Assembly (NCBI GenBank): GCA_019359435.1
Contig: JAHHHI010000014.1
Coordinates: 1-40,895, forward strand
Origin: Kaiparowitsia implicata GSE-PSE-MK54-09C
Lineage (GTDB): Bacteria; Cyanobacteriota; Cyanobacteriia; Elainellales; Elainellaceae
DNA length: 40,895 nucleotides
Direction: 5' to 3'
The position numbers and the translations under genes were made by a program. Below are positions 5,799-40,895 of this stretch, piece after piece (positions within the stretch are counted from its first letter, which is position 1; every line of letters starts with the position of its first letter). The notes under the pieces were generated by a model. It was not told where the DNA came from, did not search any database, and worked only from the letters and a program-made list of their open reading frames with translations.

Positions 5799-6719
5799 AT
5801 GGGCTTGCTGATTGCGGTTAAGGGTGAGTTGGCAGCATTGGCCGGAGCAATGATTTGGGCGATCGCCTCGGTCATCTATTCCCACTTGGGGCAGCGTCTG
5901 TCGCCGCTGGTGCTCAACCTAGTCAAAAGTGGATTGGCGATCCTAATGCTGGCGCTGACCTTAGCTGTGCTGCAGCAGCCTCTCACGACCACCAGTCCAA
6001 CGCCAGTGCTGTTGCTGTTGCTCAGCGGTGTCATCGGCATTGGCCTGGGCGACACGGCCTTCTTTGGCTGCATCAACCGCTTGGGGGCGCGCCGTGCGTT
6101 ATTAATGGAAGCCTTGGCTCCGCCGCTGACGGCCCTGCTGGCGCTTCTAACCCTGCAAGAATACTTGCGGGCGATCGCCTGGTGGGGCATTGCACTGACG
6201 GTCGCTGGCGTGACCTGGGTGATCGCCGAACGCACTCGTCCTGCCACCCTGGCGTTACCCATTGACGCCCCGCCGAGCCAGTGGCGAATGGGCGTTGCGC
6301 TGGGTCTATTGGCCGCCCTTGGGCAAGCCGTCGGCGCAGTGCTATCGCGGGCGGCACTGGCCACGACCGATATCAGTCCACTGTGGAGCACGGTGTTGCG
6401 GCTGGTCGCGGGCGTCTTCATCCTATCGTTGGGTGTGGGGCGGCAGCCTCATATACTGAGAGAATTAAAATGGCTGCGATCGCCCAAAGTTCTACAGACT
6501 GTAGTGTTAGTCGCGTTTGCAGGCACCTATCTCGGCATCTGGCTCCAGCAAACAGCGCTGAAATTTACCGCGGCGGGCATTGCCCAAGCGCTAGGAGCAA
6601 CTAGCCCGCTCTTTATACTACCCTTAGCCCTAAGACTCGGCGAGTCTCTTAGCGTGCGGGCCTGGCTGGGTGTTTTGATTGCGCTAGCGGGCATCTGGCT
6701 CCTACTGGCTCGGGGCTAG
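5799..6719 (+). CDS. DMT-superfamily (EamA) transporter
   Basis: An inner-membrane protein of about 306 residues with roughly ten hydrophobic helices arranged as two EamA repeats, one in each half. Glycine-rich helix motifs (GVIGIGLGDTAFF in the first half, GTYLGIWLQQTALK in the second) are typical of the family. Members export metabolites, amino acids or drugs; the substrate cannot be inferred. The ATG at 5799 follows GGGGGA and starts just before the first helix; in-frame starts at GTG 5712 and ATG 5742 would add 29 or 19 residues. The GTG at 5712 begins next to the stop of the oxidoreductase gene, so translation from there is also possible. Confidence 0.8.
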   Translation: MGLLIAVKGELAALAGAMIWAIASVIYSHLGQRLSPLVLNLVKSGLAILMLALTLAVLQQPLTTTSPTPVLLLLLSGVIGIGLGDTAFFGCINRLGARRALLMEALAPPLTALLALLTLQEYLRAIAWWGIALTVAGVTWVIAERTRPATLALPIDAPPSQWRMGVALGLLAALGQAVGAVLSRAALATTDISPLWSTVLRLVAGVFILSLGVGRQPHILRELKWLRSPKVLQTVVLVAFAGTYLGIWLQQTALKFTAAGIAQALGATSPLFILPLALRLGESLSVRAWLGVLIALAGIWLLLARG

Positions 6720-36574: not shown

Positions 36575-36702
36575 TTAACGTCAGTTCGGGATAAGAGGGT
36601 TTTGGGACATCGCGCGACGCGCAATGTCCCAAAACCCTTAATGTGCCGTGCGCATCGCGCACGGCACATTAAGGGTTTGAGCGTATCCCGAACTCAGGTT
36701 AA
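36575..36702. repeat. MITE-like element B with two internal hairpins
   Basis: A 128-base unit with terminal inverted repeats TTAACGTCAGTTCGGGATA (left) and the complement of TTAACCTGAGTTCGGGATA (right). Inside are two strong hairpins: GGTTTTGGGACAT/ATGTCCCAAAACC (about 36598-36638) and CTTAATGTGCCGTGCG paired with its near-exact complement (about 36639-36674). There is no coding capacity. A reduced copy lies at 32564-32613 and worn ends at 22064-22200. The flanks TTAA/TTAA may be part of a target duplication. Confidence 0.7.
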
Positions 36703-36865: not shown

Positions 36866-37111
36866 CTAGCGGGTAGACGCAGGCAAGTCTCGGGACGGTG
36901 GGGAGGGCGATCGCACCAACACCGTCATATACTGCCCGTCTATAAACGGCGCAGGAATAATCGGCGTAAACTGCGCTCGATCCGTCGCCACCTTTTTCAC
37001 ATACAGCTCGTTCATTAAGTGGATCACCTGGTCTCTCGTGCCGATGATCCAAATTTGCGCGTTACTCTCGCCCTGGTGCGATCGCACCAAGGCCTTAATC
37101 TCAGAACTCAT
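36866..37111 (-). CDS. Small conserved hypothetical protein
   Basis: An 81-residue protein starting MSSEIKALVRSHQGESNAQIW. It has a compact alpha/beta look: an initial helix, the strand IWIIGTRDQ, the helix VIHLMNELYVKK, then FTPIIPAPFIDGQYMTVLVRS and a disordered Ser/Pro tail. I believe similar short proteins occur in cyanobacteria, but I know no function. ATG 37111 is preferred; the open frame runs back to 37177 but crosses the inverted repeat at 37120-37196, which is more likely untranslated leader. Part of the gene carries HIP1-like sites. Confidence 0.6.
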   Translation of the reverse strand: MSSEIKALVRSHQGESNAQIWIIGTRDQVIHLMNELYVKKVATDRAQFTPIIPAPFIDGQYMTVLVRSPSPPSRDLPASTR

Positions 37112-37119
37112 GGGTTTTT

Positions 37120-37196
37120 GCCTCGCTAATGAGATGTATCGAAGAAACGCGCTCGGGGGTATGGTTGACCCAACCACTTGTCAGCATTAGCGAGGC
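37120..37196 (-). promoter_or_regulatory. Perfect 12-bp inverted repeat in the leader of the small hypothetical gene
   Basis: GCCTCGCTAATG (37120-37131) is exactly complementary to CATTAGCGAGGC (37185-37196). A smaller TGGTTG/CAACCA hairpin sits inside. The outer arm ends only nine bases before the ATG at 37111, so a folded leader RNA would abut or mask the ribosome-binding region. This could be a translation-control structure or a small mobile-repeat remnant. Confidence 0.5.
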
Positions 37197-37431
37197 GCTT
37201 GATAATCATCAAAGCCTGGCTCCTGCCTTCGCCAGGAGTCAGGTCAGCTGGTTAGTGAGTGCTGGATACACTCCTAATCAGCGCCCAAAACCCCAAGCGC
37301 GCATATTACTTGTCACCGGAATCCAATTCCGGTACCGCAAAGAATAAACCAAACGATCAAAGAAAACAAGTATTTTTCTCTACATTTTGTAAGGCCGCGC
37401 CACTGACCCATACAGATGGCACCAGTAGATG

Positions 37432-37639
37432 CTGGATAACCCCGGAAGCGAGGGTATTATCCAGAACATTCGACGGATAAGCACCCCATTCTTTAGGATT
37501 AACCATCAGATCTACTGGATAACACCCCAAAGTCTCAGACTTATCCAGCAAATATTTTGTTTAATTCCTTAAAAACTAAGTATTATCCCATAGATCTGCT
37601 GGATGATGCGGGAAAAGTAGGATCTTATCTAGCAGATCT
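37432..37639. repeat. Three regularly spaced CTGGATAA/TTATCCAG palindromes
   Basis: Three imperfect palindromes of 33-34 bases begin at 37432, 37515 and 37599, that is, 83 and 84 bases apart. The first two have arms CTGGATAA and TTATCCAG; the third (CTGGATGA ... TTATCTAG) is extended by AGATCTGCT/AGCAGATCT arms (37592-37639). Each is preceded by AGAT(c)T(g/a)CT-like bases, and the first two are followed by CCCC-like bases. A single related half-site, CTGGATAC, lies at 37262, about two periods upstream. No open frame explains them. Operator array, iteron-like array or degenerate repeat are possible readings. A separate ACCGGAAT/ATTCCGGT hairpin lies at 37315-37333. Confidence 0.6.
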
Positions 37640-37715
37640 GACGCTTGATACATAGTTAGACATCTCAAAAAATTTAGGAGAGATATGAGTTCATATCTCT
37701 CCCATTTGAAGTTTA

Positions 37716-37807
37716 GAGTTAGTTTTAGTGATGGGTCAATTTATGTTTTGGCCCTTGATATCCGTTGTTCAACTGTTCAACACCAAAACCTCCACTGAAC
37801 GTTAGCC
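37716..37807. other. Possible degenerate attC-like site overlapping the SDR stop codon
   Basis: The right half ends GAACGTTAGCC, close to an integron R' box (GTT at 37801), and contains the SDR gene's stop codon. The left arm TTTTAGTGATGGG pairs partly with CCTCCACTGAAC. The expected left AAC box is not present (GAGTTAG is found instead). Its length, about 92 bases, matches the two better sites. It may be a worn attC, an attI-like junction or coincidence. Confidence 0.3.
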
Positions 37808-38545
37808 TTCAGTCATACTGACCTCGATCACATTCTTAGCAAAGCCTTGGTAAGCACCACCAATTTGCTTGGCCATGGTGTCAGGAAAAACATGGAATTC
37901 ACCGGCTTGAAGTGCGGAAATAATCCCTTCTGCGACTAGGGTAGGCGATTCTGCAATCTCAGTCATTCCAGCAGCATCCCCCATATCGGTTGCAATGGGA
38001 CCAGGATGAACACTTAACACAATGGTGCCTTGCTCATGAAGGAGTTCTCGCAATGCCTGGGTAATAGAATAAGCTGCTGCTTTGGAGGCAGAGTAGGTAG
38101 CAAAGTTTGAGAATGACTTCATCGAAACCACCGAGTTGAGCTGTGCAAAAACTCCCCCTCCATTGGCTTTGAGTACTGGAGCAAAGGCTTGAGCCATAGT
38201 AATCAACCCATATACATTAATGTCCATCTCAAATTTGAGGGATGCGATCGCATCTTCGGCAAACGGGGTTGAAGTTTTGAGCACCCCAGCATTGTTCACC
38301 ACAACCTCTACATCCGTTGCGGTTTGGGCAGCAGCGACAATGGATTGGGAGTCGGACAGATCAATATAAATAGGGACTACTTTGTCACCGTATCGCTCAA
38401 CTAGCGGTGCAGCACTTTCAAGCTTTCGCACAGCAGCATACACTTTAGCCGCCCCGTGCTCTAAAAAAGACTCAACCAATACCTTACCAATGCCGCGATT
38501 GGCACCCGTAACCAGAATTGTTTTGTTAGTAATGTCGAAAGCCAT
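37802..38545 (-). CDS. Short-chain dehydrogenase/reductase (SDR family)
   Basis: A 247-residue classical SDR. The cofactor motif TGANRGIG (13-20), NNAG (84-87), catalytic S138, Y151 and K155 (YSASK) are all in place. R40 after the second strand (AAVRKLES) suggests NADP(H) preference. The substrate is unknown. ATG 38545 has GGAGG seven bases upstream; the open frame runs further to 38584 but is not needed. It lies 63 bases downstream of a TetR regulator gene on the same strand, a usual arrangement for a regulated detoxifying reductase. One HIP1 site (38244-38251) lies inside, so the gene has probably been in cyanobacteria for some time. Confidence 0.88.
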
Positions 38546-38608
38546 TGGAATACCTCCAGAGATGTAAATGAAAAGATTGAACAATCGGTCTAAGTTAAGC
38601 CAAAAAAA

Positions 38609-39199
38609 TTAGCGGCAATCGAGAAGGGAAATGGCGGCAGTAACCGCCCCTTCTAAGGTGGTGTCATCATCCATCACACGCCCCAGCAGGGCAATCCCTT
38701 GGGTGGCGCAAAGCAGTAAACGAGCCAGATTACGCGGATTGGCATCAGGGCTGATTTCCCCTGCCGCTTGGGCACGCACTAGAGTTGCAGTGAAGACATC
38801 TTCAACCTGGCGCAAATAGCCCCGCATAACGTTGGCAATGGCCTCGTCATCGGTATTAAAATCGGCAATGTTGGTGCCGAGCATACAGCCACAGCTACCA
38901 GGTTGACTATGTATTTTCTGCACGTTTCTCAGCAACTGCTTCAAATTGCCTAGTGGAGAACCAGCAGCAGCAAGACAATTCCGCATATCCCGAATAATGG
39001 AGTTGGCATAGTGTTCTAGCGCCTTGAGAAAAAGCGATCGCTTGTTGCCAAAGGTGTCGTACAAGCTTTTTTTGCCAATCCCCATATTTTTTAGCAACTC
39101 AGAGAGGCTTGCGGCTTCGTAGCCATGTGCCCAAAACACTTCCATAGCTTTGGCTAAAGCGATTTCTGTATCGAATTGCTTTTCAGGACCACGAGTCAT
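38609..39199 (-). CDS. TetR/AcrR family transcriptional regulator
   Basis: A 196-residue repressor-type protein. The N-terminal helix-turn-helix occupies about 12-58, with the recognition part SLSELLKNMGIGKKSLYDTFGNKRSLF. The ligand-binding half (60-196) includes a Cys-Gly-Cys (SCGCMLG, near 103-109). It probably controls itself and the SDR gene that follows; the effector is unknown, though the cysteines leave room for a reactive-compound sensor. A HIP1 site lies at 39034-39041. Upstream, about 160 bases from the start, is the attC-like site at 39358-39445. Confidence 0.85.
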   Translation of the reverse strand: MTRGPEKQFDTEIALAKAMEVFWAHGYEAASLSELLKNMGIGKKSLYDTFGNKRSLFLKALEHYANSIIRDMRNCLAAAGSPLGNLKQLLRNVQKIHSQPGSCGCMLGTNIADFNTDDEAIANVMRGYLRQVEDVFTATLVRAQAAGEISPDANPRNLARLLLCATQGIALLGRVMDDDTTLEGAVTAAISLLDCR

Positions 39200-39357
39200 C
39201 GAAAATCTACCCGCTGTTCAAGCACATTACAAGACTAACATAACTTAAACTGAATGGTCAATGTTTTGTTTAGGGATATTTCATTGTGATGTTCCTGATT
39301 TTCAATGCTGAGCCATGCTTGTTATTTCTCAAAGGTATAACTGAGCTGTTGGTAGAT

Positions 39358-39445
39358 GTCTAACAATGCCCATGCACACCGACCGTTGGGAGGTGATCGG
39401 TGAGGTTTGAGAAGTGTGTGCGGCGGGTGATGGGCACCGTTAGCT
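39358..39445 (+). other. attC-like integron recombination site 1
   Basis: An 88-base imperfect palindrome with outer boxes GTCTAAC (39358-39364) and GTTAGCT (39439-39445). The arms pair as GCC-CAT-CAC-CCG against CGG-GTG-ATG-GGC, with a G and an A on the left arm left unpaired. One-sided extrahelical bases are the hallmark that gives integron attC sites their polarity. The loop region holds a further CACCGA/TCGGTG stem. It lies 59 bases beyond the stop of the leftward HxlR gene and about 160 bases before the start of the TetR gene. No similar structure explains it as an ordinary terminator, and there is no T-run. Confidence 0.65.
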
Positions 39446-39503
39446 AGCTTCGGTTGCGAGTGGTGGCATTATTTGAAAAACATCTGTGATGTTCAAGCTT
39501 TGG

Positions 39504-39836
39504 TCAGCCAACAGCTTTTGGGTCATTGCCGTACCATCGCGTAGCCAGTTCATAAAGGTGATCAAGTGTTCCCGATAATTCTTTGCCGCGTTCAGTGAGC
39601 GTGTAGGTGACCTGCGGTGGAATTGTGGGTTCGTGGTGACGGTGGACAAGTTCAATTGATTCCAAAAGCCTTAACCGCTCGGTAAGCACTTTAGTAGAAA
39701 TGCCGTCTACTTTTCGTCTCAGTTCACCAAAGCGAAGTGTACCATTCGTGTCAAGGATCCAGATAATGTAGATTGTCCATTGTCCTGAGATGTGTCTTAG
39801 CAGAGTTTCCAATGGACAGCACTTAAACTCAGTCAT
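39504..39836 (-). CDS. HxlR family (winged-helix) transcriptional regulator
   Basis: A 110-residue MarR-like regulator of the HxlR/DUF24 type, starting MTEFKCCPLETLLRHISGQW, with the winged helix at about 8-95 (FGELRRKVDGISTKVLTERLRLLE as recognition region, YTLTERGKEL as wing). Cys6 and Cys7 occupy the position of the N-terminal redox cysteine through which Bacillus YodB, HypR and similar proteins sense quinones, diamide or hypochlorite. It is divergent from an azoreductase gene 90-110 bases away, just as yodB relatives control azoR. The intergenic palindromes are candidate operators. I infer a thiol-based switch; the ligand is not proven. Confidence 0.87.
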   Translation of the reverse strand: MTEFKCCPLETLLRHISGQWTIYIIWILDTNGTLRFGELRRKVDGISTKVLTERLRLLESIELVHRHHEPTIPPQVTYTLTERGKELSGTLDHLYELATRWYGNDPKAVG

Positions 39837-39886
39837 GTCGACTCACCAGTTTCCCTTAGGTTTCTAGTTACTTTTTCGTTTCTACT

Positions 39887-39922
39887 TTACTTCAGTAAGT
39901 TGCCAGTCTACTGTCTATGTAG
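39887..39922. promoter_or_regulatory. Candidate operators between the HxlR gene and the azoreductase gene
   Basis: TTACT-TC-AGTAA (39887-39898) is a perfect palindrome, and CTAC-N7-GTAG (39908-39922) is a second one, 21 bases centre to centre. HxlR-type proteins bind short dyads with TAC/GTA half-sites, so these are natural candidates for autoregulation and control of the azoreductase. No confident -35/-10 boxes could be assigned. Confidence 0.45.
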
Positions 39923-39946
39923 CAAATGAAAGTACTGGTTAAGGTT

Positions 39947-40567
39947 ATGGAAAACATTCTGCATATTGATTCGAGTCCGCGTGGTGATAGCTCCAAATCT
40001 CGCAAGTTAGCCAAAGAGTTCATGGCTGCGTGGCAAGACCTACATCCTGATGATGTGATCACCTATCGTGATTTAAGACAAACGCCAGTTCCTCATGTCA
40101 CCGAAGACTGGATCGCGGCTGATTTTACTCCTCCGGAAGCGCTTACCCCAGAAATGGCTGAACTGCTTAAGTTTTCTGATGAGTTGGTGGATGAGTTTTT
40201 GGCGGCTGATCGGTGTGTTTTCAGTGTGCCGATGTACAACTTTAGCATTCCGTCCAACTTCAAAGCGTACATTGATCAAGTGGTTCGTGTAGGTCGCACA
40301 TTCACAGTTGAAGATGGTCAATTCAAAGGACTTGCGAACGGTAGAAAAGTTTTGTTCATTACATCACGAGGCGTTGAGTATGGAGCAGGTTCTCCTTATG
40401 AAGGGTGGGATTGTCAGGAACCTGCGCTCCGGTATGCTTTTCAATTCATAGGTGTGACTGATATTCAGTTTATTCATGCCAATGGTCTAGACATGGGAGA
40501 CGAGGCACGGAAACGGGGGCTAGACGAAGCACAATCTAAAATTCAAGAACTAGTTGGCGGTTGGTAG
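39947..40567 (+). CDS. azoR: FMN-dependent NADH-azoreductase / quinone reductase
   Basis: A 206-residue flavodoxin-like enzyme that reduces azo compounds and, physiologically, quinones by two electrons, using NADH and FMN. Visible features: the phosphate-binding HIDSSPRGDSSKSR (6-19), the FMN loop PMYNF (95-99) in VPMYNFSIPSNFKAYIDQVVRVGRTF, and the SRG loop (140-142). Length is usual for AzoR. ATG 39947 gives the family-like start MENILHIDSSPRG; an ATG at 39926 would add seven residues. It is divergent from an HxlR regulator gene, and an attC-like site begins nine bases after its stop, as expected for the last gene of an integron cassette. Confidence 0.88.
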   Translation: MENILHIDSSPRGDSSKSRKLAKEFMAAWQDLHPDDVITYRDLRQTPVPHVTEDWIAADFTPPEALTPEMAELLKFSDELVDEFLAADRCVFSVPMYNFSIPSNFKAYIDQVVRVGRTFTVEDGQFKGLANGRKVLFITSRGVEYGAGSPYEGWDCQEPALRYAFQFIGVTDIQFIHANGLDMGDEARKRGLDEAQSKIQELVGGW

Positions 40568-40575
40568 CGCCAGCC

Positions 40576-40661
40576 AGCTAACAAGTCGATGAAGCGGACA
40601 GTACAGAGATTATCGATGAGGATTCAAGTTTATTTGCCGCCGCTTATCTTAGTCGTTATGC
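40576..40661 (+). other. attC-like integron recombination site 2
   Basis: An 86-base imperfect palindrome: outer boxes AGCTAAC (40576-40582) and GTTATGC (40655-40661). The inner arm GAT(G)AAGCGG pairs with CCGCTTATC, leaving a single G unpaired on the left arm. The segment after the AAC box, TAACAAGTCGATGAAGC, closely parallels the same part of classical aadA-type attC sites (TAACAATTCAATCAAGC, from memory), including the position of the unpaired base. Its polarity fits the azoreductase gene as the preceding cassette gene. A GNAT gene starts 115 bases later. It resembles site 1 in length and layout but not in inner sequence, as is normal for attC sites. Confidence 0.7.
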
Positions 40662-40776
40662 CGCTGATTAGTTGGTGAGGGCGCAGCCGAAAGCTTACTT
40701 GTTGGTGCTTGAAGTTAAGGTGGTGTAGAGCTGTCGTGCAGGCGGCGTTTTGGAGCTATTGGCGAGGCATCGCAAT

Positions 40777-40895
40777 ATGTTGTTGGAAACTAAACGGTTA
40801 ATTTTGCGAGAATTGACTCCCAATGACGTGGATGATTTACTTGAAGTCCTCTCTGATCCAGAAGCGATGCAGTTTTATCCACAGCCGTTTGACCG
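40777..40895 (+). CDS. GNAT family N-acetyltransferase, N-terminus only
   Basis: An ATG at 40777 opens a frame that runs off the window after 39 codons: MLLETKRLILRELTPNDVDDL, then LEVLSDPEAMQFYP. This is the usual opening of RimJ/RimL-type acetyltransferases, which acetylate protein N-termini or small molecules with acetyl-CoA. The acetyl-CoA motif lies beyond the edge. It follows the attC-like site at 40576-40661, and GNAT enzymes are frequent integron cassette genes. Confidence 0.75.
   Translation, partial: MLLETKRLILRELTPNDVDDLLEVLSDPEAMQFYPQPFD

Follow-up and report, generated by a model that had tools for sequence, protein, structure and literature searches.

The window analyzed here is the entire contig JAHHHI010000014.1 of the draft genome of Kaiparowitsia implicata GSE-PSE-MK54-09C, 40,895 nucleotides in length. 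Toward its right-hand end, an array of regularly spaced dyads is joined on one side to the leader of an open reading frame (ORF) for a 68-aa protein and is followed on the other by two gene cassettes, each closed by an attC site, and by what is presumably the start of a third.

The dyad array and the cassettes beside it

The features of this region are as follows.

36908..37111 (minus strand): the 68-aa small ORF, with 22 copies in the genome; at some loci of relatives, it lies downstream of pieces of the integron integrase gene, intI
37112..37391 (minus strand): conserved leader/promoter region of the small gene, a repeat module of the small-gene copies
37392..37424: presumed former site of the missing intI, between the leader module and the intI-side end of the array, placed by comparison with loci L148 and L150/L018
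37432..37464: first palindrome of the sequence-only reading, formed by facing arms of neighboring units
37457..37480: dyad 1, TTATCC-N12-GGATAA
37499..37522: dyad 2, TTAACC-N12-GGATAA
37515..37548: second palindrome of that reading
37541..37564: dyad 3, TTATCC with a weak second arm, GTTTAA
37583..37606: dyad 4, TTATCC-N12-GGATGA
37599..37632: third palindrome of that reading, imperfect
37625..37648: dyad 5, TTATCT, whose second arm, GCTTGA, coincides with the presumed attI L box by comparison with attI1 in L180
37643..37661 (plus strand): presumed attI core, with an L-box-like GCTTGAT, a spacer, and the R box GTTAGAC, placed where the array copies diverge and where the junction complements the R'' box of the first attC site
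37656..39439 (plus strand): cassette 1, with an SDR gene (37802-38584) and a TetR-type gene (38609-39199), both on the minus strand
39358..39448 (plus strand): attC site 1, R'' GTCTAAC and R' GTTAGCT (56 bits, E 3.7e-11)
39440..40655 (plus strand): cassette 2, with an HxlR-type regulator (39504-39836, minus strand) and a Flavodoxin_2/azoreductase-like gene (39926-40567, plus strand)
40576..40664 (plus strand): attC site 2, R'' AGCTAAC and R' GTTATGC (58.7 bits, E 7.7e-12)
40656..40895 (plus strand): presumed start of a third cassette, ended by the contig end and placed by the R' box GTTATGC at 40655

A sequence-only reading of this DNA had pointed to palindromes with an 83- to 85-bp period that would not be expected by chance. 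These palindromes are real: CTGGATAA-N17/18-TTATCCAG matches exactly at 37432-37464 and 37515-37548 and not once in 100 shuffles, and a third unit, at 37599-37632, carries one mismatch per arm. Their starts are indeed 83 and 84 bp apart, but this distance spans two units of an array whose true period is 42 bp. The TTATCC-type first arms lie exactly 42 bp apart, at 37457, 37499, 37541, 37583, and 37625, and each is followed at 18 bp by a partner arm, which is weak in units 3 and 5; because the palindromes first noticed consist of the facing arms of adjacent units, they are visible only at every second unit. At lag 42, the array reaches its top repeat score, 47.2, whereas none of 500 dinucleotide shuffles exceeded 18.4. 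A half-site at 37262, which had been counted as a further member of the series, belongs instead to the leader module of the small gene and is conserved in only two of the five own-genome copies that span it (L006 and L008). The expectation that the units would be conserved while the spacers diverge was borne out, identity to the window being 0.86 for arms and 0.65 for spacers over 18 of the 25 other rows (the seven partial or badly aligned rows were removed by hand, and the window sequence itself served to define the arms). Among 228 circular shifts of the mask, the unshifted mask alone reached this difference. An Rfam search found nothing relevant close to the array.

At the right end of the array, GTTAGAC at 37655 forms the G^TTRRRY crossover of the window, with the cut between G 37655 and T 37656. 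Most full-length copies of the array likewise have their right end at ...TAGTT, beyond which their sequences differ; the copy on contig C64 is without the crossover end. After insertion, the junction before a cassette must complement the R'' box of that cassette's own attC site. Both junctions of the window are exact complements of the R'' box that follows (GTTAGAC/GTCTAAC and GTTAGCT/AGCTAAC), and the SDR and TetR-type genes as well as the HxlR-type and azoreductase-like genes are therefore cassettes. Each of the two carries a regulator together with an enzyme, and three of the four genes are antisense to the array.

The same rule was scored at other loci. Among first cassettes, 13 of 18 (window included) obeyed it exactly, compared with an average of 2.5 in permutations, none of 20,000 of which reached 13; allowing one mismatch, the count rises to 16 or 17 of 18, depending on how the R'' box of L020 is read. 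These counts cover loci with a usable attC site in the retrieved DNA and so exclude loci with an attI but no such site (e.g., L147, L148, L152, and L153). At three additional loci judged by eye, one junction was exact, one had a single mismatch, and one was not scorable. For later cassettes, four of nine scorable junctions were exact and seven were within one mismatch, three more being not scorable.

The attC sites were called with a covariance model built from seven sites of relatives, hand-picked from the output of a crude script with others omitted, and these seven match the model by construction. At an E value of ≤1e-5, the model has matches in 36 of 40 genomes and none in G025, G028, G034, and G038, of which G034 nevertheless has an intI above the cut-off. 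In the K. implicata genome, 67 attC calls were made at an E value of ≤1e-3. Within 9 kb of a platform, 28 of 29 calls lie on the attI side in the right orientation, and they serve 12 of the 23 platforms. The idea that the attC sites themselves carry the attI motif was dropped, no such motif being visible in them by eye.

Related arrays and the missing integrase

The search for further copies that the sequence-only reading had proposed was successful both in this genome (6.7 Mb in 109 contigs) and in relatives. K. implicata has six copies of the array: that of the window, four on contigs C18, C64, C89, and C97, and a stub on C56. Related arrays were found in 8 of the 39 other genomes searched. 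We inspected the neighbors of 26 array loci, 5 in K. implicata and 21 in other genomes. At 7 of these 21, a piece of intI lies at the left end of the array, with the codons for its first residues no farther than about 60 bp from the array edge; the gene is full length at L095 and L104 and fragmentary at L078, L079, L088, L091, and L092. No intI piece was detected beside the array at the other 14 or at any of the 5 own-genome copies. Solitary arrays are thus common, and the window is no exception. Window-type arrays without a detectable intI at the left end include L081, L082, L080, L090, L097, and nine further loci. At L138 (G021:C81), a second, partial window-type array (6436-6595) lies about 2.8 kb from the intI-adjacent one.

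The window contains no intI, and the integrase gene that adjoins the site in a complete integron was accordingly not found there. Nor did we find an intact intI elsewhere in the genome: C85 holds an internally deleted remnant, and C7 and C104 hold N-terminal fragments; as the assembly is a draft of 109 contigs, this absence is not absolute. The integron integrase model TIGR02249 has matches at an E value of ≤1e-10 in 32 of the 40 genomes, 17 of them above the curated cut-off; among 14 control genomes, 13 match at the loose limit and none above the cut-off. Two loci suggest where the gene of the window would have been. An N-terminal intI fragment is retained between array and leader at L148, and an intI C terminus is retained beside the small-gene leader at L150/L018. 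The internally deleted remnant of L150 (G000:C85:3381-3759) sits between the small-gene leader and an attI array of its own, beyond the remnant, with a 40-bp period and a different motif.

Periodic arrays at intI are not confined to the motif of the window. The scoring covered 45 regions upstream of intI, each at least 150 bp long; 25 came from relatives and retrieved loci and 20 from a 386-genome sample of the phylum. This set includes intI fragments and the window-type motif itself and leaves out three loci of the phylum sample, L163, L170, and L171, which are without the first residues of the integrase, and L115, where the region is too short. A score of 20 or more at lags of 39 to 43 was obtained for 24 of the 45, against 10 of 685 background tiles, 6 of which overlap such arrays. 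Plasmid pB of Kovacikia minuta, for instance, has an annotated integron integrase accompanied by an array of 40-bp period and by two attC calls. The motif varies by lineage and mostly differs from that of the window, while period, dyad symmetry, and position are constant. Since a single-dyad detector proved too noisy, dyads were sought by folding each array on its own period: the folded unit is a dyad with a z score above 3 in 15 of 27 periodic regions, and the score is 3 or less in 12. The remaining 21 of the 45 regions, including L112, L118, L130, L156, L168, and L172, score below 20, and none of the six loci of the small-genome family f2 (2.6 to 3.7 Mb; presumably picocyanobacteria) has the array. 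Among the high scorers, L173 is probably a HIP1 artifact, being a HIP1-rich stretch without dyad symmetry. Two noncyanobacterial attI controls have no such array, which indicates that arrays are not required for an integron as such. Within the K. implicata genome, 23 loci were considered, namely the 22 ORF copies and an array that lacks the ORF; at L021, the available DNA was too short for scoring. At 15 of the 23, an adjacent stretch has a best repeat score that beats all 20 shuffles at a lag of one or two 40- to 42-bp periods, and at least four motif families can be told apart by eye.

The array as a probable attI site and competing readings

We conclude that the array of the window is very probably the attI site of a cyanobacterial integron whose intI has been lost. 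This identification follows from three observations: related arrays abut the start of intI where that gene persists, the right end of the array is a G^TTRRRY crossover, and the attC-bounded cassettes obey the insertion rule in the complementarity of R'' box and junction. The 14 related arrays without a detected intI piece lower our confidence in it slightly. The earlier suggestion of a protein-binding array bordering a cassette-like region thus came close, the cassettes being real and the array in all likelihood an attI site, with the integrase as the candidate binding protein. As no intact integrase was found, the site is probably an orphan in this genome, and its captured cassettes are probably immobile unless an integrase is supplied in trans.

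Binding of the integrase to the dyads appears reasonably likely. In this scenario, each 24-bp dyad (TTATCC-N12-GGATAA) would be the site for a pair of cognate integrase monomers, and the 42-bp spacing, equal to four helical turns at 10.5 bp, would line up all of the sites along the same side of the helix. The array may then correspond to the accessory DR sites of attI1 in extended form and would load or orient the integrase next to the L/R core, the place at which the folded strand of attC would be inserted.

The strongest rival, which we consider possible if rather doubtful, assigns the dyads a regulatory role as operators, through which a transcription factor or the integrase represses intI and/or an outward cassette promoter. 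Operators are classically arranged in phase with the helix, the DNA upstream of intI in relatives is taken up by the array, and a single weak promoter-like match lies within the array. For an outward promoter Pc, weak consensus matches only were obtained. However, the motif changes between integron lineages while the layout stays constant, and conservation of the motif would be expected for a host regulator but not necessarily for a cognate integrase. The merging of the last dyad with the attI core also speaks against operators. The lineage-specific motifs point to the integrase as the binding protein, in which case the dyads could serve both roles.

The 68-aa protein is unlikely to be the partner that binds the array DNA, as an integron accessory factor in loading or directionality. 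Such a role would fit the position of its ORF, which at three loci of G009, in G002, G012, and G022, and on C85 of K. implicata lies downstream of intI or of pieces of that gene, as well as its retention beside the array after intI loss in four own-genome copies and at L078. It would also fit the median dN/dS of 0.066 (170 pairs among 19 copies, 3 divergent copies of the 22 not being recovered), which indicates strong purifying selection. One relative, G022, has 40 matches to the ORF, and in G011 and G008, no intI match adjoins an ORF match. Against a partnership, nearly identical ORF copies in the K. implicata genome adjoin at least four array motifs, as sorted by eye. Outside this genome, an array scoring 20 or more lies within about 1.6 kb upstream at only 16 of 48 ORF loci (2 of the 48 have too little upstream DNA) and at none of the seven CCP2 loci, one short-DNA locus among them; ORF and array are hence not obligatorily linked. 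The protein has no match in Pfam, NCBIfam, PHROGs, or PADLOC, and a sequence search of the PDB gave weak matches only (best E value, 0.0063). Its structural model (pLDDT 67) shows no recognizable DNA-binding fold, and Foldseek found no PDB match for it at an E value of ≤0.001.

A reading of the array as a tandem repeat in decay or as a dispersed repeat of the MITE type, functionless and sometimes located upstream of intI, seems quite improbable. The sequence-only reading had offered a decayed tandem repeat as one option, and tandem 42-bp units with weak arms are indeed present: unit 3 is degenerate, the genome holds six copies of the array (one of them a stub), and two-thirds of the related arrays (14 of 21) are without a detected intI piece. 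Decay is nevertheless insufficient as the sole cause, since arrays with other motifs at many intI genes share its position, phase, and dyad symmetry. Conservation of the arms over the spacers argues against it as well, as does a right end that is a cassette junction obeying the R'' rule. The tandem units might also suggest iterons, as in the replication or partition region of a plasmid that has integrated, but this reading can be dismissed almost entirely, given that the nameable neighbor of the array in relatives is the integron integrase, which 7 of 21 related arrays abut, that attC sites follow in the window, and that no replication-initiator gene is found among the neighbors there (the 68-aa ORF without family match, SDR, and TetR).

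Relation to known integrons

Integrons are already known in Cyanobacteria, as the accessible part of one report states (PMC2426708). In attI1 of class 1 integrons, according to the available text of PMC8946536, L and R are accompanied by a further two direct repeats, DR1 and DR2, described as supplementary binding sites that favor attI1 x attC recombination. Like the window-type array, attI1 lies between intI and the first cassette, has a GTTRRRY R box, and carries extra sites beyond L and R, repeated elements that the window has in the form of its five phased dyads. The agreement extends to the geometry beside the core, where the outer TTA..TAA pair measures 25 bp in attI1 (L180) and 24 bp in the window and its TTA lies 32 and 31 bp, respectively, before the crossover TTA. 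The two differ in number and in constancy: attI1 has two extra sites, whereas the window has five dyads spaced by 42 bp and another motif family of the same genome has up to about eight by eye, and the motifs of the cyanobacterial arrays vary between lineages. The simplest reading is that cyanobacterial attI sites repeat an attI1-type, core-adjacent dyad unit at four-turn spacing, as the likeness in geometry would suggest. The attIA site of the Vibrio cholerae integron is also a cassette insertion site beside intI, but by its description in the available text (PMC8946536), on which alone the comparison is based, it is without the DR1/DR2 repeats and thus differs from the window in having no repeated accessory sites.

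With at least two attC sites and no intact integrase detected in the genome, the window also resembles a CALIN, defined in the accessible part of PMC9024848 as a cluster of attC sites lacking an integron integrase. It differs from one in retaining a full-length attI together with a small gene that has 22 dispersed copies in the genome and lies downstream of intI at some loci of relatives. Platforms of the attI type with a linked small gene occur in over twenty places in a genome in which no intact integrase was detected, which bears on integron loss and on what persists after it.

We found no published description of phased dyad arrays at cyanobacterial attI sites in the accessible parts of the literature, which included PMC2426708, PMC3108266, PMC8946536, PMC4792948, PMC9024848, and PMC9668308; subscription papers were mostly outside this set, and an earlier description is possible. 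Coevolution of attI sites with their cognate integrases has been proposed, as the available text of PMC8946536 relates. Repeated, lineage-specific phased dyads would offer several presumed recognition motifs per site, making such coevolution readable and testable. A wider proposal, tentative and on balance somewhat unlikely, combines a distinct class of cyanobacterial attI sites, with phased integrase-dimer sites whose motif coevolves with the integrase, and a dispersed, integrase-free module of attI array and small gene. Selection on the small protein, as an unrecognized integron accessory factor, would maintain this module.

A separate repeat lies to the left of the small gene. At 36575-36702, just downstream of dxs, a G+C-rich double-palindrome element looks like a REP/MITE-type repeat and is unrelated to the attI array; with 40 of 314 first-look candidates scored, its unit is matched at 91 to 98% in at least 18 other places in the genome.
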